Assembly (NCBI GenBank): GCA_022425805.1
Contig: JAKMEQ010000041.1
Span: forward strand, 1 to 32,844
From: Acidimicrobiales bacterium
GTDB taxonomy: Bacteria > Actinomycetota > Acidimicrobiia > Acidimicrobiales > UBA8592
DNA: 32,844 bases
Reading direction: 5' to 3'
Shown: piece after piece, positions 1 to 31,433 of the stretch
How positions within the stretch are numbered: position 1 is the stretch's first letter
Layout: every line of letters begins with the position of its first letter
Made by a program: the position numbers and the translations under genes
The notes under the pieces: model-generated
What the model saw: only the letters and a program-made list of their open reading frames with translations
Told to the model about the DNA's origin: nothing
Database searches by the model: none

Positions 1-839
1 GTCGTGTTGCATGAAACTCTTAATCCTTCAAGAATGTCACCGCCACATGTACTTCCGGCAAAATTTTGTAAGGGAACTGTCGTAAGCGGAGGAAGGTATG
101 TGCTTCTTAATTCAAATTCTGGTTCTGAAAGGGTTGCAGAAGTCATGCTTATAGCTGCCGCAGCTGTAACTAGCTTAAAGGTGGATCCGGGAAAGAAGAT
201 TTCGCGGTACATCTTAGGTAGTCGAGGATCTTCTCCAACTGGAAGCGATGAAAGCTCTTCCCAGGTTCTTTGTCCTTCGCTTAAGTCAGCGGAACCAAAA
301 ATATTTGGATCATATGAGGGATAACTCCAGAAAGCTAGAATTTCTCCTGTTCTTGGGTCAACAACCACGATGGAGCCTTTACGTTCACCTAGGGAATCTT
401 GAGCAACCTGCTGCATTGAATGATTGATCGTGATTATGAGATCAGCCGAAGTGTCAGTATCAGTAAAAACGTCCTTCAGGCTATTGAATCTTTGTGTTCT
501 TGTTTGCCCAGCGAGTTCATCATTGTAAAAGCGCTCTAACCCGTCAGCACCATATTGGAAAGAAAAAAATCCGGTTGAATGCGCATATAACTCCCCAAGG
601 GGGTACAGCCGTTCGAATTTTAATTGACCACCGATTTCCTCCGACTTTGCTATTAGGGTTCCATCGATTGTGAAGATGCTTCCCCGTTCGCGGTTGAAAT
701 CACGGATCACTGAGCGCATATTATTTGGATTTTCTTGAAGGTCCTGCTGTTCGAACAGTTGTATGCGATTGAGTTGCATGAACAAAGCTATGAAACAGAG
801 GACAAGAGCGACCCCAAGGAAACGTATGCGCCGATTCAT
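1..839 (-). CDS. pbpA: Penicillin-binding protein PbpA (class B transpeptidase), 5' part; runs off the left edge
   Basis: Peptidoglycan DD-transpeptidase that cross-links stem peptides at the outer face of the membrane, normally paired with a SEDS glycosyltransferase. About 279 codons are in the window, with no stop before the edge. Residues 5-24 form an N-terminal membrane anchor, followed by a class B dimerisation region and the start of the transpeptidase domain. The catalytic SxxK box reads STFK at S219, preceded by FFPG. The second SxN box reads SCN at residues 276-278, just before the edge; the KTG box lies outside. The ATG at 839 overlaps the rodA stop in an ATGA, so translation is probably coupled. 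The gene order matches the Mycobacterium rodA-pbpA arrangement. pknA/pknB-like kinases would be expected beyond the left edge, but that is inference. Confidence 0.95.
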   Translation of the reverse strand, partial: MNRRIRFLGVALVLCFIALFMQLNRIQLFEQQDLQENPNNMRSVIRDFNRERGSIFTIDGTLIAKSEEIGGQLKFERLYPLGELYAHSTGFFSFQYGADGLERFYNDELAGQTRTQRFNSLKDVFTDTDTSADLIITINHSMQQVAQDSLGERKGSIVVVDPRTGEILAFWSYPSYDPNIFGSADLSEGQRTWEELSSLPVGEDPRLPKMYREIFFPGSTFKLVTAAAAISMTSATLSEPEFELRSTYLPPLTTVPLQNFAGSTCGGDILEGLRVSCNT

Positions 840-2143
840 TGGGGCTCCATTTGTGGGGGAGTTTCTTTTATTTTTTCTGTGTGTGCTTCATGTGAAATGC
901 GGAGAAGGAGCGCTAAAAGGATCCAATTTGCGAGCAGGGAACTACCCCCATAGCTGACGAAGGGGAGCGTAACCCCTGTAAGTGGAAGCAACCGGATAAC
1001 ACCAGCGATGATGATAAATGCCTGAAATCCAAGTAACGCGGTCAAGCCGGATGTTAAAAGTTTCTCAAATGGGCGTGTTGAAGCCAATGCAATCCTGAGG
1101 CCAGACCCGATCATAAGTAAAAATGCTATAAGTATTGCTGAAGTTCCGACAAGACCCAGTTCCTCCCCTATAGCTGCAAGGATAAAATCTGTTTCCACGG
1201 CAGGAATATTTTCAGGATTTCCTACCCCTAGGCCAGTTCCTGTTAGGCCGCCTTCCGCTAATGCAAAAGAGCTCTGAACGATCTGATACCCGTCTCCAGT
1301 TGGGTCATTAAATGGATACAGCCATATGTCGACTCGTTCTTTCACATGAGTGAATTGGCTCCAAGCTAGGAACGCTCCTCCAGAAAATAGCACGATACTT
1401 ATACCCAGGTAAGAAGCTCTTCCTGTTGATACCCAAAGCAGTACTACAAATAGGGTAAAGAAAAGAAGTGACGAACCAAGGTCTTTCTCCGCGACCATCA
1501 CTACAAGAGAAACACCCCATGCAAGAAGTATTGGACCCAAATGCCGAAGTTCGGGGAAGGGCATCCCTAAGAACCGCGTGGTAGAACCTGCAAGAACTTC
1601 ACGTTTTTCCACGATGTACGCAGCAAAGAAAATAGCAAGTGCTATTTTCGCGAATTCACCGGGTTGGAAATTGACGGGGCCGAGAGAAACCCAAATTCTT
1701 GCACCATTTATTTCTCTACCAATAATAGGAAGTAGCGGCATCACCAATAAAGCCACCCCTATCAACATCATGATGTACCGGTACTCTTCCAAACGTCTTA
1801 TTTGGGGAAGTATTATTAGAGTCGTGATAAAAGCACCTACTCCCAGAAGCGTCCATGTCGCCTGTAGCCCAGCGAGATCATTGTCGAGTCGTGCGATTAC
1901 TACGTACCCCAAACCGTTTAGAAATCCAGCTAGAGGGAGTAGTGTAAAATCTGCGTGAGGAGCAAATCTTCGAATAGCCACATGCGCTAAAATCAATAAA
2001 AGAAGTATTCCGATAAGGAATGGAACGATATTCGCTGGGATCGATGATGACCTTCCCAAGCTGGCTAACACATATCCTGCAACTACGATCGTTCCGACGA
2101 GAAGAAGGAGAAGAAGTTCGATATTACGGTTTCGGAGCTTCAT
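836..2143 (-). CDS. rodA: RodA/FtsW/SpoVE family SEDS peptidoglycan glycosyltransferase
   Basis: 435 residues. SEDS-family polytopic membrane enzyme that polymerises glycan strands from lipid II and works with a class B PBP. The protein is hydrophobic throughout, with about ten predicted membrane helices. The C-terminal half carries the family signature: a GLTGTGLGVG loop, then ETDFILAAIGEELG, then a VSYGGSS motif near residue 400. The length is usual for RodA. It lies 12 bp downstream of pstP and overlaps pbpA by 4 nt, so these genes are almost certainly one transcript. RodA rather than FtsW is favoured by position in the fha/pstP/rodA/pbpA cluster; sequence alone cannot fully separate the two. 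Confidence 0.95.
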   Translation of the reverse strand: MKLRNRNIELLLLLLVGTIVVAGYVLASLGRSSSIPANIVPFLIGILLLLILAHVAIRRFAPHADFTLLPLAGFLNGLGYVVIARLDNDLAGLQATWTLLGVGAFITTLIILPQIRRLEEYRYIMMLIGVALLVMPLLPIIGREINGARIWVSLGPVNFQPGEFAKIALAIFFAAYIVEKREVLAGSTTRFLGMPFPELRHLGPILLAWGVSLVVMVAEKDLGSSLLFFTLFVVLLWVSTGRASYLGISIVLFSGGAFLAWSQFTHVKERVDIWLYPFNDPTGDGYQIVQSSFALAEGGLTGTGLGVGNPENIPAVETDFILAAIGEELGLVGTSAILIAFLLMIGSGLRIALASTRPFEKLLTSGLTALLGFQAFIIIAGVIRLLPLTGVTLPFVSYGGSSLLANWILLALLLRISHEAHTEKIKETPPQMEPQ

Positions 2144-2155
2144 CTTGCTTTTGAT

Positions 2156-3397
2156 CTAATCAGTTCTCTGTCGATTTTTTTCTATGACACCCTTAAGATC
2201 ATCAATAAAAATTTGGGCATCTTCTAAAGTGTCGAATTCGGGTTTCTTTTGTATTTCAGAAACAGTCTCCTCATCTAGGTCAAGTCCAAGTATCGGAATT
2301 CTCTCTTCAATGGTGGGATCGAACCAAAGGACACTATTTGGTTGTCCTTTGAAGATCAGTATCTGAGAATTATCGACAGAAATATTCTCTGTTTGTTCGA
2401 AAGTAACAAAGTAATTGTCGCGAGCATCCCGTCCGATGAACACCCCTATAACGAGAAGTAGTGAGAGTACGGCGATAGCTAGTTTCAGAATGTTCCTAGG
2501 AGTTGGTTCCCATTCCGGAGTGATGGATGAGGCTGCCGTCTCGAACTCTGGATTCGGGGATTGGGTATCTCTTTCGGTTTCAGGCCCAACGCTTATAGGA
2601 GATGGGGGGAATTCTGTAGGGAAGTCAACATCACTTCCTTGTATTACATCTACAACCACAACTGTGATGTTGTCCTTTCCCTCATTCTGGTTCGCTAGAG
2701 ATACCAACCGAAGTGCTGCCTCTTGGGGGTTATCATAAGTTTGAAGCGTTTCAGAAATTTCTGTATCAGATACTTCATTGGTTAATCCATCGGTACAAAG
2801 AAGGAATCGGTCACCTTTCCGCGCTGGGATATGCCAGCAGTCAACAGACGCATCGTCATCTATACCCAAAGCGCGGGTAATAACATTCCGGTTAGGGTGT
2901 ACCGCTGCCTGGTCTGCTGTGATTTTTCCTTGGAGGAACATTTCTTCAACAAGGCTGTGATCCTGCGTAATTTGACTAAAGGAATCTCTTGATAGGAGGT
3001 AGACACGGGAATCTCCGATATTTGCGATGGCAAGTTGTTGAAATACGTCTTCGTTTGAGTGAATTTGGGTAATCCCACAAAGAGTTGTTCCCATTCCTTT
3101 GTGATCAGGGTTATTGTTTGCTTCCGAACGCACCGCTTCATTTGCTAATCGAATCTGATTGCCAAAGTCATCTGGTGTTATGTACTCCCGTTCTTGAAGC
3201 ACAGTTCTAATTGCGATTTCAGATGCGAGTTCTCCACTGGCATGCCCTCCCATCCCATCAGCGACGATGAAAAGAGTGTTACTAGTGGCATAGAAATCCT
3301 GATTTATTGTTCGCAAATTCCCGGTATCTGTAGCGGAACCCCACGAAAAAATTGACATGGGGTCTCTTTCTTCGTTAATACTTCGACTCTCACTCAT
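2156..3397 (-). CDS. pstP: PP2C-family Ser/Thr protein phosphatase PstP
   Basis: 413 residues. Metal-dependent phosphatase that reverses PknA/PknB-type phosphorylation in actinobacterial cell-wall control. The N-terminal 250 residues carry the PP2C motifs in order: DTGNLRTINQD, VADGMGGH, IGDSRVYL, TQDHSLVEE, LLCTDGLTNEV and GKDNITVVVVD, so all metal-binding aspartates appear present. A Pro-rich linker leads to one membrane helix near residues 303-325 and a short extracytoplasmic tail of about 85 residues, the layout of mycobacterial PstP. The ATG at 3397 overlaps the fhaB stop (ATGA). A second in-frame ATG 12 codons later (MSIFSWGS) is also a credible start, since the domain begins just after it. 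Confidence 0.95.
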   Translation of the reverse strand: MSESRSINEERDPMSIFSWGSATDTGNLRTINQDFYATSNTLFIVADGMGGHASGELASEIAIRTVLQEREYITPDDFGNQIRLANEAVRSEANNNPDHKGMGTTLCGITQIHSNEDVFQQLAIANIGDSRVYLLSRDSFSQITQDHSLVEEMFLQGKITADQAAVHPNRNVITRALGIDDDASVDCWHIPARKGDRFLLCTDGLTNEVSDTEISETLQTYDNPQEAALRLVSLANQNEGKDNITVVVVDVIQGSDVDFPTEFPPSPISVGPETERDTQSPNPEFETAASSITPEWEPTPRNILKLAIAVLSLLLVIGVFIGRDARDNYFVTFEQTENISVDNSQILIFKGQPNSVLWFDPTIEERIPILGLDLDEETVSEIQKKPEFDTLEDAQIFIDDLKGVIEKNRQRTD

Positions 3398-3861
3398 TTC
3401 GCCTCCAAAACAGTGTCACCAATTTGGATACGGTCATTACATTTCAGAATCTGTGGACTTTCTATCTTCTTCCCATTTATAAATGTTCCATTTGTTGAGC
3501 TTAAGTCTTCAAGGTATTGGGAATCGTCCTGAAGAAAGATGCGTGCATGAAGGTGTGAAGCAAATGAATCACTTATCGTAATGACACATTCTTCTGCTCT
3601 TCCAATAAATATCTCTTCTTCGATTGGGTATTCGATTCCTAGGAGGTTAGCTGGTTCAAGGGTCTGAAGAAGAGTGACTTGTTGTGAATGCTGTCTATCT
3701 CTTACAGCATTCTTTGGTATTTTTGGATTTTTGGGCTTTCGGAGTTGGAATAAGGTTATCAAGATAACGCAAATGAAAAAAAAGTAGAGAACTATTAGAA
3801 AAAGAATTTTGAGTAGGTCTAAGAATTGTTCTGACACGGTATGTTGCCGGTTTCTGTTCAA
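3394..3861 (-). CDS. fhaB: FHA-domain membrane protein FhaB (FipA-like)
   Basis: 155 residues, the same length as the mycobacterial FhaB/FipA family. A membrane helix spans about residues 17-39, followed by a basic stretch and a cytoplasmic FHA phosphothreonine-binding domain from about residue 80 to the end. The FHA core is recognisable as IGRAEEC, then SDSFASHLHARI and SSTNGTFINGKKI, which supply the expected Gly-Arg, Ser-His and Asn-Gly positions. In Mycobacterium this protein links PknA/PknB signalling to division. It lies directly upstream of pstP with a 4-nt overlap. The gap of about 44 bp to the preceding crotonase-type gene leaves room for a separate promoter, but none is obvious. Confidence 0.9.
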   Translation of the reverse strand: MNRNRQHTVSEQFLDLLKILFLIVLYFFFICVILITLFQLRKPKNPKIPKNAVRDRQHSQQVTLLQTLEPANLLGIEYPIEEEIFIGRAEECVITISDSFASHLHARIFLQDDSQYLEDLSSTNGTFINGKKIESPQILKCNDRIQIGDTVLEAK

Positions 3862-3905: not shown

Positions 3906-4685
3906 TTATCGTCCTTGCCATTTTGGGTTGCGTTTTTCTTTAAACGCTTGTCGCCCTTCCTTTGCATCACGAGTTTGGTTTGCAACGATTCGGATTGTTT
4001 CTCCAAATCTTACTGCTTCTACCCACCCCATATCTTGAGTTCGGGTCGCAACTTCCTTCGTTGCCCGCGAAGCAAGTGGGGCAGATTTACATAAGCGTTG
4101 AGCTAGGTCTTTTGCTTTAGATATAAGTTCTTCATGCGGGCAGATATCCCAGACAAGTCCAATTTCTTTCGCTCGTTCAGCTGTAACGACTTCTCCTAGT
4201 AGGAGAAGCTCCATCGCATGAGACCAAGTAAGTTGTTGAGGAAGCCGTATTGCACCAACAATTGTCGGCGTGCCAATGCTTACTTCAGGGTAAGCAAAAG
4301 TCGCTCGGTCACTTGCGATCACGAAGTCACAAAAAGTAACTGCTGTTAGCCCATACCCAATACATGGACCGTTGACAGCAGCGATCACTGGCTTGTAAAG
4401 TTCCATGCCGCTCTCAAAGCTATTTATTGTCGGTTTTTCCCAAAATGTACCGGGAAAGGTCCCGGCGCTTCCGTTTGAATCTTTTAGGTCAGCTCCGGCA
4501 CAAAATGTTTTTCCGACTCCGGTAAGTATCGCTACCCAAGCACTTTCATCTTCGAGAAATTTTTTCCAAGCGCTGTTCAGCCCTTCACGCATCGGGCCGT
4601 TAATCGCATTGTGCTGATCGGGACGGTTGTAACTGATCGTAACGATATTCCCCTCTTGTTCATAGGTAACTGGAAGATCCATCAT
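3906..4685 (-). CDS. Enoyl-CoA hydratase/isomerase (crotonase) family protein
   Basis: About 259 residues from the chosen start. Crotonase-fold enzyme acting on an acyl-CoA thioester. The first oxyanion-hole segment is GKTFCAGADLKD and the second region is GPCIGYGLTAVTFCDF. The second acid of classical hydratases is present in YPEVSIG, but the position of the first catalytic Glu (before the CD pair) appears to be Thr, so hydratase activity is doubtful and another crotonase-fold reaction is possible. The start was set at ATG 4685, preceded by GAAAGG at good spacing, 13 bp after the fhaA stop. A longer reading from 4751 would overlap the fhaA coding end and extend the N-terminus beyond the family. 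A fatty-acid-type gene inside an fha/pstP operon is unusual. Confidence 0.85.
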   Translation of the reverse strand: MMDLPVTYEQEGNIVTISYNRPDQHNAINGPMREGLNSAWKKFLEDESAWVAILTGVGKTFCAGADLKDSNGSAGTFPGTFWEKPTINSFESGMELYKPVIAAVNGPCIGYGLTAVTFCDFVIASDRATFAYPEVSIGTPTIVGAIRLPQQLTWSHAMELLLLGEVVTAERAKEIGLVWDICPHEELISKAKDLAQRLCKSAPLASRATKEVATRTQDMGWVEAVRFGETIRIVANQTRDAKEGRQAFKEKRNPKWQGR

Positions 4686-4698
4686 GAGCCTTTCATCA

Positions 4699-5358
4699 CT
4701 AGCTGGCTTCGAATCTGATTCGGAATTTTCCCAATTCGATTCTGTCACCATTCAAAAGTATATGTTCAGAGATACGGTCGTCATTGACTACAGTGCCGTT
4801 TGTAGAACCGAGATCTTTTAGTATGTAGTTGTTGCCATCAAGACGGATCTCCGCTTGAGAGCGACTTATGCTTGAATCATCGAGAACAACTGTGGAATCT
4901 TGAAGACGACCTATGGTTGTTACTGTTTCCTCGAGCGTAACCCGTTGCCCGTCTGGCATAACTAGCGCTCCTGGAGGTCGGCCCGTTTGAGTCTCTTTAT
5001 ATTGAGTATCAATTCTAAGGTTTCCACTTCGTAAATTGTCGCTAACTACAAGCGAGACAGTAACTGGGCCAAGGAACCCGTATGCCTCTTTTGAACAATA
5101 GTCGCGTATGGTCTCTTCAAGTTCACGACGGATTGATTCAATAGCGTTGGCGAAATGATCAAAATCGTTTTGGGATAATAGAATTTCGAAGTTGTTGGGG
5201 GCTAGATCCTCTCCGTTGACAGCGATACTTCTATTACGTTCTATCTCTCGTACAAGCCGCCGACCTATTTCAACAGGCTTAACAGAGCTACTGAATATTC
5301 TCGCAAAAGTTCCTTCAACTATTTTTTCTAACTTGTTTTCTATTTTCTTGATTCCCAC
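4699..5358 (-). CDS. fhaA: FhaA: DUF3662 domain plus C-terminal FHA domain
   Basis: 219 residues. The N-terminal 120 residues match the DUF3662/FhaA_N type (start GIKKIENKLEKIVEG, then an EIGRRLVREIE segment). The C-terminal FHA domain spans about residues 145-219, with TIGRLQDST, SSISRSQAEIRL and LGSTNGTVVNDDR. In mycobacteria FhaA binds phosphorylated partners of PknB, including MviN, to control peptidoglycan synthesis. The protein is much shorter than mycobacterial FhaA because the long low-complexity linker between the two domains is nearly absent. It lies 25 bp downstream of the FG-GAP/amidase gene on the same strand, so the two may share a transcript. Confidence 0.93.
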   Translation of the reverse strand: MGIKKIENKLEKIVEGTFARIFSSSVKPVEIGRRLVREIERNRSIAVNGEDLAPNNFEILLSQNDFDHFANAIESIRRELEETIRDYCSKEAYGFLGPVTVSLVVSDNLRSGNLRIDTQYKETQTGRPPGALVMPDGQRVTLEETVTTIGRLQDSTVVLDDSSISRSQAEIRLDGNNYILKDLGSTNGTVVNDDRISEHILLNGDRIELGKFRIRFEAS

Positions 5359-5383: not shown

Positions 5384-7909
5384 TTATTCTTCAAGAAGTC
5401 CTTGCTCAATAAGTTCTTCTCTGGATGGGAAATCAAATAACATCTTTGAATTCAGTTCTGGGTCTGAACAAACGTTGTATCCAGGGGCATCTGCAGCGGT
5501 AAAGTTTCGAACGGTCGTTGGGAAAGTTTTCGTTGTCGGCACCTTTAGATACTCTTCGATTGCATCAGCGAGAGCTTTGGATACTGCCGGCACATACTCA
5601 CCGGATTTAATTAAGTTTGCTTCAGCTTTGTTTGCTAGATATGCAAGTTCTACCAAGGTAGTCGGGGTCTTTGGACGGGACAACATTCCATATGTATCTG
5701 TTCCTCGATTGTTAAGTACTCGAATAACTCCGGCATCGTACTGACTTGTCCATGAAACCCAAGAGAATTTATTAAGTGCTTCGTAGACGGATTCGTATAC
5801 AAGAGTTCCTAGATGAGCTGATTTTAATGAGTTGCTCTGGACGAAAGATTCTGTTCCAGGGTCTGAAGAAGGAGCAATCTTTGGTGCATTGTGATGGATA
5901 GATACCATCCCCTCTACTTGAAGGTGATCAGCGTACAACCCACGCGAAGATAGAGGGATGTGGTAATTACTAGTCCGAACTAGAAAACCATTGATGTTAC
6001 GTTGTGAAAGTTCTTCTAAGAAGGCTTCGGCGACGGTTAAGTTGATCGCATTTTCCCGAATTCCATTATGGTAAGCTCCTCCATCAATACCGCCATGGCC
6101 AGGGTCAATAGCAACCTGTACGTCTTTAATGATTTCGCCTCCTCTTACCTGAACGGCATACCCGCATGGCGATCGAACGATATAACCATTTTCTATTTCA
6201 GCGAGTACGACAACATTCACCCCCGTTGTGGTGGTCAATCCCCATGGAGGGCGTTCAAGCTCAAGCTCAGATGTTGTTCCTAACCGACCCCAATAATCCA
6301 TGCTTTTATTCGAATCGGGGACATTCATCGTATCTTGATCAAGAAACAGGAAAGAAGCTGGGTCGATTCCTTCTTCCTTCCCCCAAAAGAGTGTCAGAAT
6401 TCCGGTGTCGAACTGTGTCCCCAAAGATTCCCCGCTGGCAGCTACGACTAATTCAGATTTTCCATCCCCATTCATATCAAGGGCAGCGAGACCATCACCC
6501 CAATGATCTGCTGGTTCAGCAGTAATTTCTAATCCTAAACTATTCTGATTTACAGAAAGCGACCCTTTCCCAGCAAGGCCACTTTCACTTCCAAATACGA
6601 GAGTCACCGCTCCTGCTCGTGGGATGCTTTCCACACTCTCTGCTGGAGCCCCAATAGCGAGATCGCTATATTGATCTCCGTTGAAATCACCGCTAATAAG
6701 GACAGAACCCCAACGATCGCCTATTTCGCTATCTCCAACCATGTTCAGGCTTCCCTGATGAAGCCGTTTAGCTTTCTTTAACGTAATCCCATTAGAAGAA
6801 CCAAACATGATGGTGACTGAGCCGGTTTGTTCTCTTTTTCCGCTACTTTCATTCGGTGCCCCAATGGCGAGGTCACTGAAACCATCATTATTAAAATCAC
6901 CTACTGAAAGCACTGCCCCCCAATTATCATATGCTTCGTTCCGATCAGGCATCCCTGGAGTATTTTGGTGAAAACGTAGCGAATTTGTACCTGTTATCCC
7001 AGAAGGGTTCCCGTACATAATTGTAACTGCACCTACTTCAACTGCTTTCCCATAGTTTTCTCCTGGTGCTCCGATCGCAAGGTCCGCGTAGCCATCGCTA
7101 TTAAAATCCCCCGCAGCAAGTGCGTATCCCCATCTATCTCCAGGTTCGCTGCCATCGGGAACACCTTTACTATTTTGATCTATGCTCTGCGCAGTAGCTT
7201 CTGAAAGGCCGTTCTCTGTTCCATAAAGAATAGATATTTTCCCTACATCATGTTTATCCTTGTTGTCTCTATGTGGAGCTCCGATTACAAGGTCTTCAAA
7301 ACCATCGCCATTGAAATCACCTACAGAAAGCATTGACCCCCACCGGTCCCCTGTCTCATTCTCATCAGGTGTTTCTAAGGTACCTTGATGAAATGATCGT
7401 GGAATATCGAGAGATGCTACTCCTCCAGCTGCTCCAGAAAAAACCCAGACCATTCCGGCATCGATTGCGTCGCCAATGTCTTCATCTGGTGCACTTACAA
7501 TTAGGTCATCAAACCCATCTGCGTTGAAGTCTCCAAAAGCTGATCGAGCTCCAAAATGATCACGTTCTTCATTGCTATCTGGGGTGAAAGGCATTCCTTG
7601 GTGAAGATAGGTACTGTTCTTGGGAGTTTCAGAGGCATCGCCGTAAAGGATTGAAATGGCTCCTGCAGCATTTGCGTCGTCGAAACGTTCTCCAGTAGCC
7701 CCAACTGTCAGGTCAGCGAACCCGTCACCGTTGAAATCCGGCCGCGGAGTACCGTTCCGCTCAAAACTTGAATTGTTTTCTGCCTGTGCTGGAACTTGTA
7801 CCCAGAGAAAGAGAAAGCCAAATACTAAGACCACGAAGATGAAAAATTGGTCCATCTTGGTCATGGAATATTTATTTCGTAGTTGGGCATTCAAGAGATT
7901 CAAATTCAT
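5384..7909 (-). CDS. Secreted FG-GAP beta-propeller protein fused to N-acetylmuramoyl-L-alanine amidase (Amidase_3)
   Basis: 841 residues. A signal peptide or anchor spans about residues 20-43 (possible cleavage after AQA). Seven FG-GAP/integrin-alpha-like repeats follow, from about residue 58 to 545, each with a Ca-loop of the type DFNGDGFxDLxIGAP; seven copies fit one closed seven-bladed propeller. From residue 599 there is an Amidase_3 domain: DPGHGG (H605), REN (E619), SIHHN (H672) and VELAY (E754) match the two His and Glu zinc ligands plus the catalytic Glu. It should therefore cleave the MurNAc-L-Ala bond in the cell wall, with the propeller as a binding or display module. The ATG at 7909 has a weak AGG upstream; ATGs 14 and 17 codons later would give a more usual signal peptide. 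Confidence 0.9.
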   Translation of the reverse strand: MNLNLLNAQLRNKYSMTKMDQFFIFVVLVFGFLFLWVQVPAQAENNSSFERNGTPRPDFNGDGFADLTVGATGERFDDANAAGAISILYGDASETPKNSTYLHQGMPFTPDSNEERDHFGARSAFGDFNADGFDDLIVSAPDEDIGDAIDAGMVWVFSGAAGGVASLDIPRSFHQGTLETPDENETGDRWGSMLSVGDFNGDGFEDLVIGAPHRDNKDKHDVGKISILYGTENGLSEATAQSIDQNSKGVPDGSEPGDRWGYALAAGDFNSDGYADLAIGAPGENYGKAVEVGAVTIMYGNPSGITGTNSLRFHQNTPGMPDRNEAYDNWGAVLSVGDFNNDGFSDLAIGAPNESSGKREQTGSVTIMFGSSNGITLKKAKRLHQGSLNMVGDSEIGDRWGSVLISGDFNGDQYSDLAIGAPAESVESIPRAGAVTLVFGSESGLAGKGSLSVNQNSLGLEITAEPADHWGDGLAALDMNGDGKSELVVAASGESLGTQFDTGILTLFWGKEEGIDPASFLFLDQDTMNVPDSNKSMDYWGRLGTTSELELERPPWGLTTTTGVNVVVLAEIENGYIVRSPCGYAVQVRGGEIIKDVQVAIDPGHGGIDGGAYHNGIRENAINLTVAEAFLEELSQRNINGFLVRTSNYHIPLSSRGLYADHLQVEGMVSIHHNAPKIAPSSDPGTESFVQSNSLKSAHLGTLVYESVYEALNKFSWVSWTSQYDAGVIRVLNNRGTDTYGMLSRPKTPTTLVELAYLANKAEANLIKSGEYVPAVSKALADAIEEYLKVPTTKTFPTTVRNFTAADAPGYNVCSDPELNSKMLFDFPSREELIEQGLLEE

Positions 7910-7932
7910 CGAATAAACCTGGCGTTAGGGGG

Positions 7933-8016
7933 TGCGCGAGGAGGGACTTGAACCCTCACATCCCGAAGGACACAGGCTCCTGAAGCCTGCGCGTCTGCCA
8001 ATTCCGCCACTCGCGC
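7933..8016 (-). tRNA. tRNA-Leu (anticodon CAG)
   Basis: Minus-strand cloverleaf with acceptor stem GCGCGAG/CTCGCGC, discriminator A, a long variable arm as expected for Leu, and a T-arm with loop TTCAAGT. The anticodon stem CAGGC/GCCTG encloses loop TTCAGGA, so the anticodon is CAG. CCA is not fully encoded (ACCC follows the stem). Its 3' end is 23 nt from the start codon of the FG-GAP/amidase gene on the same strand, so a shared tRNA-mRNA transcript is possible. Confidence 0.97.
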
Positions 8017-14716: not shown

Positions 14717-16288
14717 TTAATAACCATCTGGGAATAGGGTCCCTTGAAGATTCGTTCCGGTGAGATCAGCGCCGGTGAGATCAGCGCCGGTGAGATCAGC
14801 GCCGGTGAGATCAGCGCCGGTGAGATCAGCGCCGGTGAGATCAGCGTTTGAAAAATCAACCGATACCAGATCCGACCCTAAGGACGCTTCCGTGAGATCC
14901 GCTCCGGAAAAATTAGCCCCAGCCATATACCCGCCGCCGCAGCAGTCGTTGGGCCACGGGAAAATGACGTTACTTAAATTAGCCCCGGACAGGTCCGCCC
15001 CAACGAAACTAGTTGTGTGTTCCGAGAAATCTACGTTACTAAAATCAGCTCCAGATAGATTCGCTCCAACAAAATCAGCATGCAATAGGTCAAGATCATT
15101 GAACTTTGCTGACTCTAATTCAGCAAAGTTCAAATAGGCGTAGCTCAAATCAACTCCAGTGAAATCCGTATTAGGAAGACACTCCCAACGTGGGATTTGT
15201 TCATCCGTGAATCCTTTATCGCATCCCGCAGCTTTCAGGGTCATTTCCCAAGTTTGTTCCTCAAACGAACTCGTAGAATTTTCACACTCGGCTTCTGGGG
15301 GCGTTGTAATTTCAGCCAAAGGGCCGATATATGCTGTTGCTCCCTGATCAATAAGTGCACAAGTGAAAGTAGCGTTATCAAATTGTGCATCACCAAGCAC
15401 TAGATCACGGAGGTACGACTCTGTGAAGTCAGACCCAGAGAAATCGGCTCCTGAGAGATTAGAAAAACGTATTCCTGCATACAAAAATTGAGCATCCGGA
15501 AACTCAGAGCCAGCAAAATTCACACTGTATAGAGCTGCACTATAAAAATCAGCGTCGGAGATAGTAGCCCCAATCATTTTGACCCCTGAAAAGTTTGATA
15601 ATCCGGCATTCATGCCGTCGATTTTTGCTTCTGAAAGATCTGCAAGAAATAATTTCGCTCCGGAAAAGTCGATATTTTGGCCTGTGATTCTGGTGAAATC
15701 AGTTGTTACTAGTCTCGCCCAGTAAAAGTCCGCATCAACAATGTTCGCCCCTTCGAAAGATGCTCCCGTAAGGTCACCGCCTCTAAACCAAGGGGTAGAA
15801 ATATTAGATTCCCGAAATGTGGTTTGGGACAAATTCCCATCAAACACTGGTTTGTAGAGAGTTGAGTAATCAAAGTTTGCTTGAGATAGAGGAGATTGAA
15901 GAAATTCAACCATTTCAAGATCAGAGTATCTGAAATCTACTCCACTGAAATCAACATTTCTGAATGTTGAGTCCTTTATAACTGAGTAACTAAGGTCCGC
16001 TCCGGAAAGGTCGGTGCCTTCGGGGCATTCCCATGAATACTCACTAGCAGAAACTTTATCGCAGCCGACTGCGAGTAGTTTTTCTTCCCAAGGTTCGGGA
16101 ATAGGTGTTGGGGTTGGGTCAGGTTCAGGTGTTGAATCAGGGGTTGGATCAGGTTCAGGTGTTGAAGTCGGATCAGGTGTTGATATTGGAGTCGTCGTTT
16201 CTAAATTTGTTTGAGCGTCCGTGCTCTCTTGTTCGCTGCTGCAGCTAGCTAGAGTAAGTAACAGAAGGAGATAGAAGAGTTTTTTCAT
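14717..16288 (-). CDS. Pentapeptide-repeat lipoprotein with two solenoid modules
   Basis: About 523 residues from ATG 16288, chosen because the lipoprotein signal peptide begins there (MKKLFYLLLLLTLASC, lipid Cys16); a start 6 codons earlier adds nothing useful. After a Thr/Pro/Asp-rich stalk (about residues 25-65) come two modules. Each opens with a W-E-x-x-L-x-A-x-G-C-D-K segment and a WEC segment, followed by many A(D/N)LXX pentapeptide repeats forming a right-handed beta-helix. The final 40 residues are nearly identical ADLTG units. Function unknown; pentapeptide solenoids can mimic DNA or form binding surfaces, and an exported lipoprotein form suggests an extracellular surface role. It sits between repeats R1 and R2. 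Confidence 0.9.
   Translation of the reverse strand: MKKLFYLLLLLTLASCSSEQESTDAQTNLETTTPISTPDPTSTPEPDPTPDSTPEPDPTPTPIPEPWEEKLLAVGCDKVSASEYSWECPEGTDLSGADLSYSVIKDSTFRNVDFSGVDFRYSDLEMVEFLQSPLSQANFDYSTLYKPVFDGNLSQTTFRESNISTPWFRGGDLTGASFEGANIVDADFYWARLVTTDFTRITGQNIDFSGAKLFLADLSEAKIDGMNAGLSNFSGVKMIGATISDADFYSAALYSVNFAGSEFPDAQFLYAGIRFSNLSGADFSGSDFTESYLRDLVLGDAQFDNATFTCALIDQGATAYIGPLAEITTPPEAECENSTSSFEEQTWEMTLKAAGCDKGFTDEQIPRWECLPNTDFTGVDLSYAYLNFAELESAKFNDLDLLHADFVGANLSGADFSNVDFSEHTTSFVGADLSGANLSNVIFPWPNDCCGGGYMAGANFSGADLTEASLGSDLVSVDFSNADLTGADLTGADLTGADLTGADLTGADLTGTNLQGTLFPDGY
14761..14846. repeat. Tandem 15-bp repeat in the 3' end of the pentapeptide gene
   Basis: Five perfect copies of TGAGATCAGCGCCGG followed by an 11-bp partial copy. 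Each copy encodes one ADLTG pentapeptide on the minus strand, so copy-number change keeps the frame and alters solenoid length. Confidence 0.95.
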
Positions 16289-16379
16289 TGGTAGTAGTGT
16301 ATGCAAAGAACGCTACCCTATTCCAGGAAATCAATGATGCTATTTTCATTATTCATAATGCTGATAGATAGCCACGCGA

Positions 16380-22926: not shown

Positions 22927-24108
22927 TCAGGTTTGTTCTTTCTGTGCCCATATGAGAGTAGCTTCTTCCGCTAGTTGCCTAAGAGGCAGTTGCGTTTTGT
23001 TTGCAACACGAACAAGATCATTGTGTTCAGGTTTCGCACTGTATGGACCTACTTTTATTGAAACCTTTTCTCCATACATATGTATTTGCTCCAAAGAGCG
23101 AGGTAGTTCTGTTTTTTCTACTGGAATAATTCTGCATCCAAGTGACCCTGTTGCGGAAAAAAGTAGGGCTTTGAGTGTTTCTACTTTTTCATCGCTGCAA
23201 AGAATGCGTATTTCCTGTCCGGGTCTTCCCTTTTTCATAATTATTGGAACAATCCAAGCATCTTCAGCTCCTGCCGTTAGTAAGGATTCAATCGTATGAG
23301 CTATGACCTCAGGGGTTACATCATCAACGTTCGTTTCGAGTAGAAATTTGAGCTGTGATGTAGTTGTTGCTTCTGACTGATTTAGGAGAATGATTGAAAC
23401 GACATTTGGGTAGCTTGCCGGATTTCTTGTTCCTGCCCCCCGTGAAGATGACCCTATTTGCCCTGCGTTAATCCCTCCCCAACGAGTCGCAAGACTTACG
23501 AGTAAGGCTGCTCCCGTTGGGGTACAGGTTTCTTTATCTATGTTTACGTTTGTGACTGGGCACCCTTGCAGGATTTCTACAGTCGCGGGAGCGGGCAGAG
23601 GTAACGTGCCGTGGCTTGCTTCAACCGATCCATAGCCTAAACCAACAGGCCCAATAGTGATCTCATTAAGCATCCCATAGTCTTCTTCGAGTGCAGAAAG
23701 GAGCAGCCATACCCCTACGACATCAATGATGGCGTCAACGGCGCCAACTTCATGGAAATGCACTTGATTGATATCAACCCCATGCTGCTTCGCTTCGGCT
23801 TGCCCTAATAGACGAAACGTTTCGCGTGCCCCGTTAGCAGTATTTATCGGAAGGTCAGCTTCGCTCAGCAATAGGTCTATTTCACTCCATTGTCTTCCAT
23901 GTGTAGCTTCGTCATATCGGACCTGAGCTTCTGTTGCAGTAAGGCTGCATCGGAGAGTTTTCTTTAACTCAATATCCCATTTCCCAAGGTTTAAACCATC
24001 CAGAGGTTCCAAAGCTTGATAAGGGTTTTCGACCAATTCGGAAAAAGCCCCTAAAAGCATGTTCCCGGAAGCCCCAAATGAAGGATCTATCCATAAAGAA
24101 AAGCTCAT
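22927..24108 (-). CDS. larC: LarC, nickel insertion protein for the nickel-pincer nucleotide cofactor
   Basis: 393 residues. CTP-dependent nickel insertase of the LarB-LarE-LarC pathway, which builds the Ni-pincer cofactor of lactate racemase and related LarA-family enzymes. The N-terminal DPSFGASGNMLLGAF matches the family start (usually GASGDM). HFHEVGAVDAIIDVVG and TPTGAALL are further hallmarks, and the length is usual. In Lactiplantibacillus plantarum larC is split into larC1/larC2 joined by frameshifting; here it is one continuous frame. It starts 2 bp after the larB stop, third in the larE-larB-larC order. Confidence 0.93.
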   Translation of the reverse strand: MSFSLWIDPSFGASGNMLLGAFSELVENPYQALEPLDGLNLGKWDIELKKTLRCSLTATEAQVRYDEATHGRQWSEIDLLLSEADLPINTANGARETFRLLGQAEAKQHGVDINQVHFHEVGAVDAIIDVVGVWLLLSALEEDYGMLNEITIGPVGLGYGSVEASHGTLPLPAPATVEILQGCPVTNVNIDKETCTPTGAALLVSLATRWGGINAGQIGSSSRGAGTRNPASYPNVVSIILLNQSEATTTSQLKFLLETNVDDVTPEVIAHTIESLLTAGAEDAWIVPIIMKKGRPGQEIRILCSDEKVETLKALLFSATGSLGCRIIPVEKTELPRSLEQIHMYGEKVSIKVGPYSAKPEHNDLVRVANKTQLPLRQLAEEATLIWAQKEQT

Positions 24109-24110
24109 CT

Positions 24111-24770
24111 CTAATCCGAACTACGTAGCTGGCTGATCCTATGAGCCACACACGCTGAACCAAACCCATTATCGATTCCTACAATCGCTATTCCTGGCGC
24201 ACAAGAAGCAAGCATCGATAAGAGTGCCGTGACTCCATCCAATGATGACCCGTAACCACTTGAGGTGGGTACTCCTACTATTGGCTGAGGAACCAAACCA
24301 GCAAGCACTGTCGGCATTGAACCTTCCATCCCAGCAATAGCTACTAGTACATCAGCTTTTTTTAGGCTGGGAAGAACCTCGGTTAAACGGTGCAGTCCTG
24401 AGACCCCAACATCTGTAACGGTGAAGGTCGAATGTCCAAGAGCTTCTAACGTTATTCGAGATTCGCTTGCTATTCTCACGTCGGACGTTCCTGCTGAAAC
24501 GATTCCGACAGTAAAATCTGTGGAAGGCCGATGCCTCCATGAAAGAGTTGAATATTTAGCAGCGTCAGGTTGCAACGTAAGTAGAGCGTCGAACTGTTCT
24601 TCTGTGGCTCGAGTAGCAATAACCGCGTCATCAGAATTTTCATTTTCTAGCATTTGTTGCACTATTTCAAGACATTGATCTGTCGTCTTGCCCTCACAAT
24701 AAACGGCCTCCGGCATATTAATTCTTTGAGTTCGGTCGAAATCTAAACAGATTTCTTCACTTTTTCTCAT
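24111..24770 (-). CDS. larB: LarB, pyridinium-3,5-biscarboxylate mononucleotide synthase
   Basis: 219 residues. Carboxylates and hydrolyses nicotinic acid adenine dinucleotide in the first step of nickel-pincer cofactor synthesis. The C-terminal part is AIR-carboxylase (PurE)-like: VGIVSAGTSDVRIASE, then DVLVAIAGMEGSMPTVLAGL and VGVPTSSGYG, with IAIVGIDNGFGSA near the end. The ATG overlaps the larE stop in an ATGA, so translation is coupled. Confidence 0.93.
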   Translation of the reverse strand: MRKSEEICLDFDRTQRINMPEAVYCEGKTTDQCLEIVQQMLENENSDDAVIATRATEEQFDALLTLQPDAAKYSTLSWRHRPSTDFTVGIVSAGTSDVRIASESRITLEALGHSTFTVTDVGVSGLHRLTEVLPSLKKADVLVAIAGMEGSMPTVLAGLVPQPIVGVPTSSGYGSSLDGVTALLSMLASCAPGIAIVGIDNGFGSACVAHRISQLRSSD

Positions 24771-25969: not shown

Positions 25970-27526
25970 TTAAGAGGTTCGGTTTCTGATCTTTTTGACG
26001 ACCTTAACCCACCGGTGGATGATCGAAGTCTGTTCCATAGCTTTTTGAAATTGAATTTGGAGTACTTGTAACAGATTTTTAAATACTTGTATCTGTCGCT
26101 GAAGGGCATCTGTTTCGGCTTGTAACATTTCTTCACGCTGCGACGCCGATTGCAGCTCATTTTCTAAACTAGCTTTATAAAATTGTTGTTCGTCTTCTAT
26201 CTGGTTTCGCAGGCCATCTGCTTCGGCTTGTAACATTTCTTCACGCTGCGACGCCGATTGCAGCTCATGTTCTAAACTACTAACAGTTTGATTTAGGTCT
26301 AATGTCCGGTTAATTAATTCTTCTGTCTCGATGTTCTGGATAGTTACTTTCTTCCTGAAAAATGTTTCCGCATTCGATTGACTTGGGTTCTTCTCTAAGC
26401 CATGGAGAATACGATCTACTTTGTCAACAAAGAATTTATAAGTTAGATCATCTCGCTTGGCGATTTCTTCATATGTAGTTTCGGCAAGCTCAGTAAGAAA
26501 TTGATCATCTTTAATTTTTTTAACAACTTCTTTGAAGTTAGATCCATCTTCTAGCAAAGGAATGTAATGACGATCCGGTTTTAGTACTCCGGTGTATTCA
26601 CCTGGGTTTAAGACTAAGACGGTTCTGGTTGCGATTGCTTCAAAAATTTTTGGGGTGATAGTTTTATGTGAGATCTTTTCCTCAAACAGTTTTAATTTAG
26701 CTTCCCAATATTGAGATAAATCAGCATTAGGATTTTCAGATTCGTATACTGTCAAATCTTCTGCGAGCGTTCCGTCAAAGTCGAAGATCGAAGCGCCTCC
26801 TTCAACGCCGAGCATGGTTTTGCCGCTCATAAGAAACGTATCCCAATCATCTCCATAAATTCGTTCGGATTCTTTCGTTTGAACATCGGATCTCAGGTCG
26901 GAGTCTTTGCTCCAAGAAATAAAGTTTTGACCTATCTTTTTTTTGGCTTGGGCAAACTTACCTGTGGACCATGGCAATTCTCTACCCCGATAAATAACAT
27001 CATATTCTCTTTCCTTAAAGGGTCTAAAGGAAAGAGCACGTAATCTTTTTGAGAAATAGCCGGGAAGGCAAGAAAATACCTTTATATCTGACATGAACTC
27101 CCCGCTATAAACCATTTCAGCGCTTTCAGGCGACAAACAGGAGAAAATAGCTTGCACTCCAAGACAACGCATTTGAGCCTTCATCTTGTTGATCCATCTG
27201 TATTCGTCTTGGACTATTTGTACTTTGATCCCATCAAAGTGGGTAATGCCCTTTACCCATTTAGCAGAGAGGTAATAAGACTCCGTAATGGTTATTGAGC
27301 AGTGAATGATTATGGCGTCGTATTCTCTTTTTGAGAGATTTTCTGGGCATTGGGAATTTATGGGATTGATGAGATGGATATCGTGACACGACTCTGAAAC
27401 AATAGATTCGATGTAGTCGATAAAGGTATTTGCTGGGTGTTCATCATCTGCGAGGAGCAGTACCTTCAAAGGCTTATCTACTGGGTCAGAACTAACCGCA
27501 GATATTTCAAGGAATTGGTTTTTCAT
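25970..27526 (-). CDS. Glycosyltransferase (GT-B, family-1-like) with C-terminal coiled coil
   Basis: 518 residues. Residues 1-400 resemble the GT-B group with a C-terminal block of the Glyco_trans_1_2 type: TPKIFEAIATRTVLVLNPG, then DRHYIPLLED, and TTYEEIAKRDDLTYKFFVDKV. The N-terminal Rossmann half begins KVLLLADDEHPA. From about residue 420 there is a heptad-rich coiled coil containing a 36-residue duplication (ELQSASQREEMLQAE twice), which could mediate oligomerisation or contact with partner enzymes. It ends the operon after the methyltransferase-like and SGNH genes, with a 6-bp gap to the latter, consistent with building a surface glycan. Donor and acceptor are unknown. Confidence 0.75.
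   Translation of the reverse strand: MKNQFLEISAVSSDPVDKPLKVLLLADDEHPANTFIDYIESIVSESCHDIHLINPINSQCPENLSKREYDAIIIHCSITITESYYLSAKWVKGITHFDGIKVQIVQDEYRWINKMKAQMRCLGVQAIFSCLSPESAEMVYSGEFMSDIKVFSCLPGYFSKRLRALSFRPFKEREYDVIYRGRELPWSTGKFAQAKKKIGQNFISWSKDSDLRSDVQTKESERIYGDDWDTFLMSGKTMLGVEGGASIFDFDGTLAEDLTVYESENPNADLSQYWEAKLKLFEEKISHKTITPKIFEAIATRTVLVLNPGEYTGVLKPDRHYIPLLEDGSNFKEVVKKIKDDQFLTELAETTYEEIAKRDDLTYKFFVDKVDRILHGLEKNPSQSNAETFFRKKVTIQNIETEELINRTLDLNQTVSSLEHELQSASQREEMLQAEADGLRNQIEDEQQFYKASLENELQSASQREEMLQAETDALQRQIQVFKNLLQVLQIQFQKAMEQTSIIHRWVKVVKKIRNRTS
26107..26278. repeat. 64-bp direct repeat pair within the glycosyltransferase gene
   Basis: Copies at 26107-26170 and 26215-26278, offset by 108 bp (36 codons) with two mismatches. 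This is a recent in-frame duplication of coiled-coil sequence. Confidence 0.95.
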
Positions 27527-27532
27527 AAATTG

Positions 27533-28222
27533 TCAATCTTGTTTTTGAGAGTTCGCCAAACTTTCAATCGCGTTTTTTAAGACAGGATTAATGAAATCAA
27601 AGTAAACCTGGTGCCCTGTTTCTCCGAGATGCATCCCGTCCTCCAAGAGAAAATGAGACATTTCCCTTCCTTCTGATAATAATTTAGAGAAATGGGCTTC
27701 GATGTCAAGGAAGATTACGTCCTCTTGAAGTTCTTCAGCGAGTATTCGAGTAGCTTCGTTGTACTTTTGATTGAAGTATTCAAAAGGAAATCCAGTATTG
27801 GGAAGATTGTCTTCCTGCAGGGTAGTGGGGTGATTATTGATCAACAGCACGTGTTTAACCCCAAAATTTTTCCCCCTTTGTACCATTTCTTTTAAATTCG
27901 CTTTAAATGCATCAAGGCTCACTCGGGGAAGGCCCTGATCACTTAGCCAATGGTTACAGTCATTTAGCCCATACTGTAGAAGTAAAATGTCTGGGCTTTG
28001 GCTTTGAACATGGTATGGCATGTCTTCGAGGGCTTGACGGGTAGTTCTTCCATTCACAGAACTATTTATCACAAGGATATCGTGCTCGAATGAGGATTTA
28101 TTCTCTTCCAGATGCGCTGCTACCTTGACTACACATCCTTGATGTATCGATATTCCTTGCCCTACACAAATGGAATCACCATAAAATATTATTTTCAATC
28201 TCTTAGTGGCATTTCCCATCAT
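27533..28222 (-). CDS. SGNH/GDSL-type esterase
   Basis: 229 residues. GDS at 15-17 (FYGDSICVGQG), the NGRTT block, YGLND, and DGMHLGETGH near the C-terminus supply Ser, Gly, Asn and the Asp/His pair, so the active site is complete. Lipase, deacetylase or O-acyl esterase activity is expected. No signal peptide is seen, so it is probably cytoplasmic. It lies 5 bp after the methyltransferase-like gene and 6 bp before the glycosyltransferase gene, suggesting a role in trimming or acyl-modifying a glycan intermediate. It starts with two adjacent ATG codons. Confidence 0.88.
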   Translation of the reverse strand: MMGNATKRLKIIFYGDSICVGQGISIHQGCVVKVAAHLEENKSSFEHDILVINSSVNGRTTRQALEDMPYHVQSQSPDILLLQYGLNDCNHWLSDQGLPRVSLDAFKANLKEMVQRGKNFGVKHVLLINNHPTTLQEDNLPNTGFPFEYFNQKYNEATRILAEELQEDVIFLDIEAHFSKLLSEGREMSHFLLEDGMHLGETGHQVYFDFINPVLKNAIESLANSQKQD

Positions 28223-28227
28223 TTTAA

Positions 28228-28920
28228 TTATATGCCACCCTGGAACTCAATTAAACAAGTTTGTCTACCATTTGGGTATACAGACTCTTGAGGCTCATCG
28301 AATAACCCCAAGTCCGGATTCACGATGTGAGGTAAGAAGGGCTCTAAAACTTTTCGGGTTTGCTCTCCGTCCCAAGCGAGTAAAAACATTATTTCGTCAC
28401 CGTCTATTCGCTTTGTTTTGTAATGACGGGGAGTGTTATACCAAGTCAGCAGCATTTTCAGGTGTGAACAGCGAGGAATAAATTTGTTTAAGAAGATCTC
28501 AAGCCGTTGGTCAGCATTTGGTAAGAGATCGTTAGCGATAATGGTGTTATAGCTACGATCATCTAGAGTTTCCCAATCTTTTGGGATAATAAATTCTCTT
28601 CCGACAGATTTTTCAAGTGCTTTAACATTTTCTATTTGTTCATGAGCTAGTAGATCTACCAAAAAGTAATTATGAGACTTGGCTAGAACTTGGGTAAGAG
28701 ACGTTAATCCTCCGCCTACATCAAGGATTGTTTTATTAGATTCTCTGCTGAAAAGAGGCCCATAGAGAGCTTCGTATATGTATCTCTTAGCCGGAGTTTC
28801 TTCTAACCACTTTTCACAAACGTAACCCTTAGGAACCTGGTCGGAGAATTTATCTAAACGTTGTTTTGTCGTATCGTCTTCTAAGTATTTTTCAACTAAC
28901 CGATTCGTAATTAGGTGCAT
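28228..28920 (-). CDS. SAM-dependent methyltransferase-like protein
   Basis: 230 residues. A Rossmann motif-I-like segment TILDVGGGLTSLT (about residues 65-77) is followed by YFLVDLL as strand 2 and YNTIIANDLLPNAD as the motif-IV region, a plausible class I methyltransferase core. The rest is not recognised. It is first in a tight three-gene operon with the SGNH and glycosyltransferase genes, so a glycan or glycolipid substrate is a reasonable guess only. Confidence 0.7.
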   Translation of the reverse strand: MHLITNRLVEKYLEDDTTKQRLDKFSDQVPKGYVCEKWLEETPAKRYIYEALYGPLFSRESNKTILDVGGGLTSLTQVLAKSHNYFLVDLLAHEQIENVKALEKSVGREFIIPKDWETLDDRSYNTIIANDLLPNADQRLEIFLNKFIPRCSHLKMLLTWYNTPRHYKTKRIDGDEIMFLLAWDGEQTRKVLEPFLPHIVNPDLGLFDEPQESVYPNGRQTCLIEFQGGI

Positions 28921-29063
28921 GTCAAACTACTTCTTTTGTCTACCGGTTTATATGGTAACCCTATCGATCTGAGATGGTTGCGGAATGAGAAAATGCGCCA
29001 CCGTGTTTTCTTTCTATGCCTAGTAACAAAGGTATATATAGGATGCAAAATTAGCTGAATACA

Positions 29064-29873
29064 TTAGTGCGTATCCCACAGTTCTCCTATAGGCGTCTCC
29101 CGCGTGACCATATCTTCTATCCATTCTCCATCTGGATGTTCTACCTGGATAACTATTGGTACCCATCCATATTCTTTTCCTTCTGGTGGGTCGACTAGAA
29201 GACCGTGGTCTATTTCAGCTAGATGCAATGGATACCCTTGGTCATTGGATTGGGGTTGTTCTAAAAATTTTTGTGAACCTCCCCAATCGCGGTGCATCTT
29301 CTCTATCAGCATTTGCATTTCACCAAGATACGCATCTGTGTACACATCTGGATAATCAATAGTTAAACCTTGAAAAAGAGGCTGGTCACGGAATCTAAAC
29401 CACTGGTATGAAACTGTGCTTTCATCATCTAGCACTGTCTCATAGACTTTTGGGTCGCAAACACTCATATCTTCACAGTCATAACAAGAAAAATCAGGAT
29501 CGACCCAATTTTCTCTATCTGAGCCTAAAGTTGCGTCGATTTCGTGAGGAGCTATATCTGCGGTTTCAGGAACTGACCCATAGTGAAGTTCAGTCAGAGT
29601 TTCCGGCACTTCTGAAGCCGATACTGGGATTAATGTATCGTCATCCAATATTTCATAGTAGGTGCTCCATCCCCGCTCTTCTACTTCTGCTCCTCCCCAA
29701 TCAATGACGATACTTGTTTCTCCATTTGTATGTTGGGGGCGTAAGGGAATATGGATTTCAAAACTTTCTGTATTGGTAAACGGATGCTCCCTTTCATCCC
29801 CTTCATCGAACGAAAATACCCCAGCGTTTTCTCTTTCATAGAGATGCTCATTGTGCTCGATATGCATTGGCAT
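29064..29873 (-). CDS. 3' part of a frameshifted lipoprotein gene, function unknown
   Basis: 269 residues from its first ATG, but the same frame stays open and protein-like further upstream (HFVEIFNLDADLKTENTNFG) to about 29945. This is the natural continuation of the frame that ends at 29906. One base appears to be missing near 29941-29950. The segment is acidic, rich in Tyr/Trp/Asp, with a C-x2-C and a nearby Cys (YDCEDMSVCD), and matches no family I know. If repaired, the full product is about 730 residues. No ribosome-binding site precedes the ATG at 29873, so separate translation is doubtful. Confidence 0.6.
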   Translation of the reverse strand: MPMHIEHNEHLYERENAGVFSFDEGDEREHPFTNTESFEIHIPLRPQHTNGETSIVIDWGGAEVEERGWSTYYEILDDDTLIPVSASEVPETLTELHYGSVPETADIAPHEIDATLGSDRENWVDPDFSCYDCEDMSVCDPKVYETVLDDESTVSYQWFRFRDQPLFQGLTIDYPDVYTDAYLGEMQMLIEKMHRDWGGSQKFLEQPQSNDQGYPLHLAEIDHGLLVDPPEGKEYGWVPIVIQVEHPDGEWIEDMVTRETPIGELWDTH

Positions 29874-29905
29874 ACCGAAATCTCCGAAGTTCGTATTTTC
29901 CGTTT

Positions 29906-31258: not shown

Positions 31259-31433
31259 GAACCACACTTTTCTCAATACTTTACGTATCTCTAACTCTAA
31301 AATATTGCAACCAATGATGTTAAACCAAACAGAACTAATGAAGGCCCATCGTGACTAGCTGAGTTAACTCTCGTAGGAAGGTTCCAAGCCTTTACATTTT
31401 TGTATTGTTAGGCGTTCCGTTCTTAAATCTCTA

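Follow-up and report, generated by a model that had tools for sequence, protein, structure and literature searches.

Known targeting modules of wall amidases are LysM, SPOR, SH3 and AMIN domains. The mycobacterial amidase Ami1 (Rv3717), an Amidase_3 enzyme of the same phylum as the protein described here, likely does the same job, and its deletion in Mycobacterium smegmatis is reported to give chains of unseparated cells (PMC5430687). The solved chain, 4m6g, has 225 residues, which leaves no room for a propeller. Bacterial integrin-alpha-like propellers (Chouhan 2011) are described with seven blades and FG-GAP motifs, and with calcium motifs in all seven blades of the bacterial examples, both as in our protein; however, these propellers are without an amidase partner, and the word amidase is absent from the main text of that paper (PMC3192720). 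The Psathyrella velutina lectin (PVL) is described as an integrin-like, seven-bladed GlcNAc lectin with DxDxDG loops like those seen here (PMC8023676, PMC4456360). It is fungal and reported to have six GlcNAc sites (PMC4456360), and its likeness to our protein lies in the predicted fold and the loops. Another paper names beta-propellers among extracellular domains fused to wall-related enzymes, but those enzymes are different from the one here (PMC12419801). In the open-access literature, we found no paper on a fusion of FG-GAP repeats or a propeller with an amidase. Both halves belong to known families, and their combination is new.

Gene and Domain Architecture

The window, i.e., the whole stretch of 32,844 nucleotides analysed here, is the entire contig C77 of a genome of 1.57 Mb that is 74% complete. 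The first-pass annotation had placed a complete Amidase_3 and seven FG-GAP repeats in one secreted protein, and our analysis agrees: Pfam and PDB matches give both domains, coordinates and reading frame were confirmed exactly, and an export signal is predicted from the sequence. The features of the gene are as follows.

5384..7909, (-) strand: propeller-amidase fusion gene, 841 aa, ATG start
7781..7909, (-) strand: predicted N-terminal hydrophobic signal, residues 1-43 (read from sequence)
6242..7774, (-) strand: predicted integrin-type seven-bladed FG-GAP propeller, residues 46-556 (Pfam, model, structure comparison)
7709..7738, (-) strand: predicted Ca-loop 1, DFNGDGFADL, residues 58-67 (alignment)
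7502..7531, (-) strand: predicted Ca-loop 2, residues 127-136 (alignment)
7289..7318, (-) strand: predicted Ca-loop 3, residues 198-207 (alignment)
7079..7108, (-) strand: predicted Ca-loop 4, residues 268-277 (alignment)
6869..6898, (-) strand: predicted Ca-loop 5, residues 338-347 (alignment)
6659..6688, (-) strand: predicted Ca-loop 6, DFNGDQ variant, residues 408-417 (alignment)
6449..6478, (-) strand: predicted Ca-loop 7, residues 478-487 (alignment)
6116..6241, (-) strand: amidase prefix with invariant Cys582, residues 557-598, common to unfused relatives (alignment)
5555..6115, (-) strand: Amidase_3 catalytic domain, residues 599-785 (Pfam, PDB profile matches)
6095..6097, (-) strand: predicted zinc ligand His605 (alignment)
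6053..6055, (-) strand: predicted zinc ligand Glu619 (alignment)
5894..5896, (-) strand: predicted zinc ligand His672 (alignment)
5648..5650, (-) strand: predicted catalytic Glu754 (alignment)
5387..5554, (-) strand: C-terminal tail with invariant Cys814, common to unfused class relatives (alignment)

The N-terminal signal ends in an AQA site of the signal-peptidase type and carries no lipobox, and relatives in the genus appear to have the same type of signal. Translation could plausibly also begin at either of two further in-frame ATGs, residues 16 and 19. In L072, L077, L079, L081 and L086, mechanical ORF calling over-calls the start codon, extending the fusion back across the tRNA-Leu gene that precedes it. 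No other FG-GAP repeats and no second Amidase_3 were found in the window's genome, which is incomplete. We rejected an assembly artefact as the origin of the fusion because the same frame occurs in 14 genomes. A TcdB_toxin_midN match inside the propeller stays below its cut-off (23.5 against 24.8), and we do not read it as pointing to a toxin.

The amidase half matches Amidase_3 (PF01520) at 93.8 bits (cut-off 27; E 1.6e-26) over profile positions 1-173 of 174. We take the active site of this family to consist of His-Glu-His zinc ligands and a catalytic Glu. The residues that would fill these roles, H605, E619, H672 and E754, are invariant in a ten-row alignment of fused and unfused relatives. 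They also align by sequence with the solved Amidase_3 chains 3ne8, 5emi, 8c0j and 8c2o, and the zinc site thus appears intact, as first proposed. Cys582 and Cys814, both invariant in the same ten rows, may form a disulfide. The catalytic domain is without the long insertion that AmiA-type enzymes carry after the second His ligand and ahead of the catalytic Glu: in the AmiA chain 8c2o, a stretch of about 58 residues corresponds to about 29 in the family profile, and 3ne8 has about 20 extra, both unlike the fusion. In the EnvC/NlpD-regulated AmiA-type amidases, this long insertion is presumably the inhibitory helix.

Unfused Amidase_3 proteins of the class (e.g., L083, L088 and L092) are 41-45% identical to the window's amidase part over seven rows and share with it the prefix, the active-site residues, the two invariant cysteines and the C-terminal tail. 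They differ, however, in that many have a lipoprotein-like or Thr/Ser/Pro-rich N-terminus, none has a propeller and they do not lie beside fhaA. The likeness to Ami1 is more distant: the profile match of the fusion to 4m6g is weak (E 3.5e-7) and covers about 47 positions at the C-terminal end. The Rv3717 family NF038140 (NCBIfam; cut-off 335) gave no match to the window protein at E 0.001, and two unfused relatives match it far below the cut-off (38.9 bits for L083).

The propeller half shows seven separate FG-GAP (PF01839) stretches above the cut-off (E 7.3e-65). Calcium-type loops start at residues 58, 127, 198, 268, 338, 408 and 478, a spacing of 69-71 residues that is far beyond chance. 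In these predicted DxDxDG-type loops, Asp is kept at positions 1 and 5 in every row reaching them, and the loops probably bind calcium. An AF2 model of residues 46-556 built from a nine-row alignment reached a pLDDT of 74.5, and its top Foldseek matches are the heads of integrin alpha V and alpha 5 (query TM-score ~0.54; best E 3.3e-15). VIA-align of the model against integrin alpha V and alpha 5 gave Z 29-30 with an rmsd of ~3.0 over ~380 residues. The marks of an integrin-type propeller are all found here, namely seven repeats, a predicted seven-bladed fold and DxDxDG-type loops.

Closure of the propeller had been left by the first-pass annotation to structure prediction, which favours the seven-bladed fold (pTM 0.84; Z ~30) and gives low confidence to the closing stretch. 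The integrin match spans residues 10-468 of the model, i.e., 55-513 of the protein, and residues 514-556 fall outside it, partly with pLDDT <50. The seventh D-x-[WF]-G element, DYWG at residues 538-541, lies in this partly low-confidence stretch. We would expect the residues after 513 to give blade 1 a strand and so close the ring. A full-length AF2 model from five rows (pLDDT 31) gives no usable placement of the two domains. When phage amidases and viral FG-GAP fragments were included in an alignment of 40 rows, the viral propeller rows fell wrongly over the amidase, and this alignment was set aside.

Genomic Neighbourhood

The genes around the fusion, listed from the contig start onwards, are the following.

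3..839, (-) strand: penicillin-binding-protein-like gene, truncated at the contig end (assigned by sequence and gene order)
836..2143, (-) strand: SEDS protein, FtsW/RodA family (profile search)
2156..3397, (-) strand: PP2C phosphatase, pstP-like (Pfam)
3394..3861, (-) strand: fhaB-like FHA gene (Pfam)
3906..4751, (-) strand: enoyl-CoA hydratase gene, between fhaA and fhaB (Pfam)
4699..5358, (-) strand: fhaA, FhaA_N and FHA (Pfam)
7931..8016, (-) strand: tRNA-Leu(CAG), 21 nt before the fusion ATG

The fusion is the edge gene of a wall-kinase cluster and is perhaps co-transcribed with it. Wall-growth genes lie downstream and metabolic genes upstream, with no adhesion genes in the flanks. The enoyl-CoA hydratase gene between fhaA and fhaB is seen in the genus and also in the sister-genus locus L155.

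As the first-pass annotation had stated, the fusion lies immediately upstream of fhaA, which in the window starts 25 nt past the fusion's stop. Its open question of conserved synteny has a divided answer. The two genes are adjacent in all ten genus loci that have both (the window, L067-L071, L076-L078 and L082), 25-27 nt apart in nine and 128 nt apart in L077, and yet five genomes keep the fusion with no FhaA match. These are G299, G300, G301, G305 and G314, 67-94% complete and forming one clade, in which no FhaA_N match was found; the fusion therefore does not need FhaA. The locus itself was seen without fhaA in four of the five, and G301 is cut before that point. At the five loci of the four genomes (L072-L075 and L079), the enoyl-CoA hydratase gene follows 101-103 nt after the fusion, and a short PP2C (~300 aa) comes after it. 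A PknB/PASTA kinase is next after this PP2C in the three contigs scanned (L061, L063 and L064, taken by their length as the contigs of L072, L074 and L073, respectively). These five loci show no fhaA, fhaB, SEDS or pbp match. SEDS places number two in each of the five genomes of this clade and one to four in other genomes of the genus.

Near unfused amidases, fhaA was absent in 34 of 34 cases (3 from sister genera, 31 from the class) within stretches of 4-14 kb, and the same kind of search does detect fhaA in the sister-genus contigs L155 and L156. Together with the five genomes without an FhaA_N match, this leaves unsupported the functional tie to FhaA that the gene order had suggested.

Distribution of the Fusion

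An amidase match was obtained in 17 of the 20 family genomes. Both halves share one frame in 14 of the 18 genus genomes, the window's included (G000, G298, G299, G300, G301, G302, G303, G305, G308, G310, G311, G312, G313 and G314); in five of these (G298, G299, G301, G313 and G314), a contig end truncates the frame. A fifteenth genome, G309, has the two halves at the ends of two separate contigs, together with two further Amidase_3 frames of 184 aa. In the remaining three (G304, G306 and G307; 69-78% complete), Amidase_3 was not found. The PDT neighbour gene is likewise unmatched there and the contig of G307 ends inside the SEDS gene, so the fusion locus may be unassembled. Four genomes with the fusion lack a PDT match too, and a true absence from the three is possible. 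Two additional copies were seen: a second, diverged propeller-amidase of 811 aa elsewhere in G305 (L080:5086-7521), which falls outside all other fusions in both trees described below, and a second copy with a broken frame in G299 (L075).

The two sister genera hold four Amidase_3 places, three of them unfused; a contig end truncates the fourth (G297:C345, 150 aa), which may be of either kind. Our wider samples, which overlap, comprised 296 genomes of the class, 396 of the phylum and 397 of the order. Outside the genus, both halves were not seen together among the 295 other class genomes (at most three candidates scored per genome), nor, among the matches listed, in the 395 other phylum genomes or the non-genus part of the order sample (at most two candidates per genome in each). 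Within the samples searched, the fusion is restricted to one genus. The proposal that the architecture is lineage-specific thus agrees with the matches listed, and we reject within these samples the reading that it is common. Two apparent further fusions were rejected: L089 (1579 aa) includes unrelated sequence upstream as well as a run of X, and L115 (719 aa) is an apparent read-through.

None of 80 matching plasmid records and none of 41 matching phage records covers 80% of the fusion query. Beyond Actinomycetota, the search used close-relative patterns only and returned six loci, each under a Microthrix, Acidimicrobiales or Actinomycetota title; a fusion in other phyla is possible.

Phylogeny, Selection and Origin

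In the amidase tree, computed without the C-terminal piece L082, the 17 fused rows group in a single clade apart from the 34 unfused ones (support 100/99.9). They do so again in the propeller tree (14 against 24 unfused; support 100/99), computed without the truncated L073-L075 and without rows aligned over <300 query residues. Two amidases of the sister genus G296 are the nearest rows to the fused clade, with a weaker join (91/75); the sister-genus amidase L085 (G297) lies elsewhere in the tree on a long branch. In the propeller tree, backbone support is too weak (60/91) to single out a nearest unfused propeller, and no donor of the propeller was found among the 24 unfused rows.

Both halves are under purifying selection, and the propeller evolves faster than the amidase. 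Its dN/dS is 0.055-0.115 (seven of eight pairs gave a value) and that of the amidase 0.025-0.071 (six of eight), most of the synonymous distances behind these ratios being near saturation. In all five pairs with both values, the amidase ratio is the lower one, nearly equal in one.

A lipobox follows the hydrophobic stretch in 16 of the 34 unfused homologues, both G296 copies among them, and many unfused homologues have Thr/Ser/Pro-rich tethers, whereas in fused proteins whose N-terminus is intact the lipobox is absent from that place. The propeller thus occupies the place where many others hold an anchor. A lipid anchor is a likely ancestral state, although 18 of the 34 unfused homologues fail the lipobox pattern and the G296 join is the weaker one.

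Besides the window, 11 of the 17 genus loci scanned have tRNA-Leu(CAG) upstream of the fusion; five of the other six (L067, L073, L074, L075 and L078) are cut before that point, and L080 has other tRNAs upstream. The sister locus L155 (G296) has LactB and PDT at one flank and, at the opposite one, tRNA-Leu(CAG), an SDR gene and fhaA; the genes that separate the two groups do not include an amidase. G297 has fhaA and PDT on one contig and no amidase match in the stretches read. Since the fusion directly follows tRNA-Leu(CAG) in the genus and the sister loci have no amidase there, the ancestor of the genus most likely gained the fusion gene at the position between the tRNA-Leu gene and the wall cluster.

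Discussion

Amidase_3 in this genus is of the fused type only, except for the two 184-aa frames in G309, and Amidase_2 was found in none of the 20 family genomes, the same search being positive in 6 of 14 control genomes. The fusion is therefore the only amidase found in 14 of the 15 genomes having it (62-94% complete), a statement that covers Amidase_3 and Amidase_2. This argues for a housekeeping role and not for an accessory adhesion enzyme. Taken with the dN/dS values and the M. smegmatis Ami1 phenotype, it makes a cell-separation amidase the best reading, and on balance we lean towards the fusion being the genus's exported cell-separation amidase, with the propeller, not a lipid tether, as its targeting module. 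The protein would be exported and work outside the membrane, where the zinc site of H605, E619 and H672 with E754 would cut the MurNAc-stem peptide bond, most likely when daughter cells part at the septa, as is the case for Ami1 in Mycobacterium smegmatis. A lipid anchor and Thr/Ser/Pro-rich tether would have been replaced, most likely once, by a signal peptide and a calcium-loop propeller, which most likely keeps the enzyme bound to some repeated ligand of the wall or envelope.

Other roles for the propeller deserve attention. Integrin alpha propellers are its nearest solved folds, FG-GAP proteins have been called cell-adhesion proteins in Nostoc symbiosis (PMC9620832) and the genus has other FG-GAP proteins, e.g., L166 with trypsin, fn3 and FG-GAP, all of which would suit an adhesion or matrix-binding protein whose outward propeller binds particles, polysaccharide or cells and whose amidase seats or releases it in the wall. 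We nevertheless consider such a role unlikely: the active site is fully kept, the amidase is the more constrained half in all five pairs (nearly equally so in one), no other amidase type was found in 14 of 15 genomes, and wall-growth and metabolic genes, rather than adhesion genes, flank the locus. A secreted lysin acting against other bacteria or cell debris, with the propeller binding foreign walls, would fit a predicted signal peptide without lipobox, and amidases with binding modules are common lysins. Being the only amidase type found, forming one clade within one genus and lying by the wall cluster, the fusion is nonetheless a very improbable lysin.

Some other amidases require a partner to open the active site, and the propeller could bind a protein of the division or PASTA-kinase machinery and thereby control the amidase. 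The gene stands beside a kinase/phosphatase cluster in both clades, with the short spacing to fhaA in nine of ten loci, and its catalytic domain is without the long insertion seen in 8c2o and 3ne8, so amidase control, if any, must lie elsewhere. However, fhaA, fhaB, SEDS and pbp genes can all be missing from the locus while the fusion stays, and no partner candidate can be named; we regard this kind of control as doubtful.

Returning to the cell-separation amidase, we offer a bolder version with considerable reserve, by analogy with PVL: the propeller that replaced the lipid tether of the sole amidase might be a multivalent, calcium-dependent glycan reader (for septal GlcNAc ends, for example) that steers cell separation. 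PVL is a related seven-bladed propeller with GlcNAc sites, so a wall sugar as ligand is a reasonable guess at most. If the targeting reading is true, an integrin-type propeller on an apparent housekeeping amidase would be a new kind of steering module, and one bacterial integrin-like propeller would be tied to a testable function. It would also offer a placed event, a single gain at the base of the genus between tRNA-Leu and fhaA, the sister genera being without the fusion.

Other genes deserve brief mention. Five ORFs at 25970-32366 of the window (518, 230, 269, 456 and 310 aa) have no Pfam match at E 1e-5, and a 529-aa protein at 14717-16306 has strong pentapeptide-repeat matches. The L166 protein (L166:3092-7501), from the same genus, is an open frame with trypsin, a P-domain, four fn3 and five FG-GAP stretches. 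At 22927-24770 of the window, adjoining genes carry Ni_insertion and AIRC domains, and we take them to resemble larC and larB of the nickel-pincer cofactor pathway.
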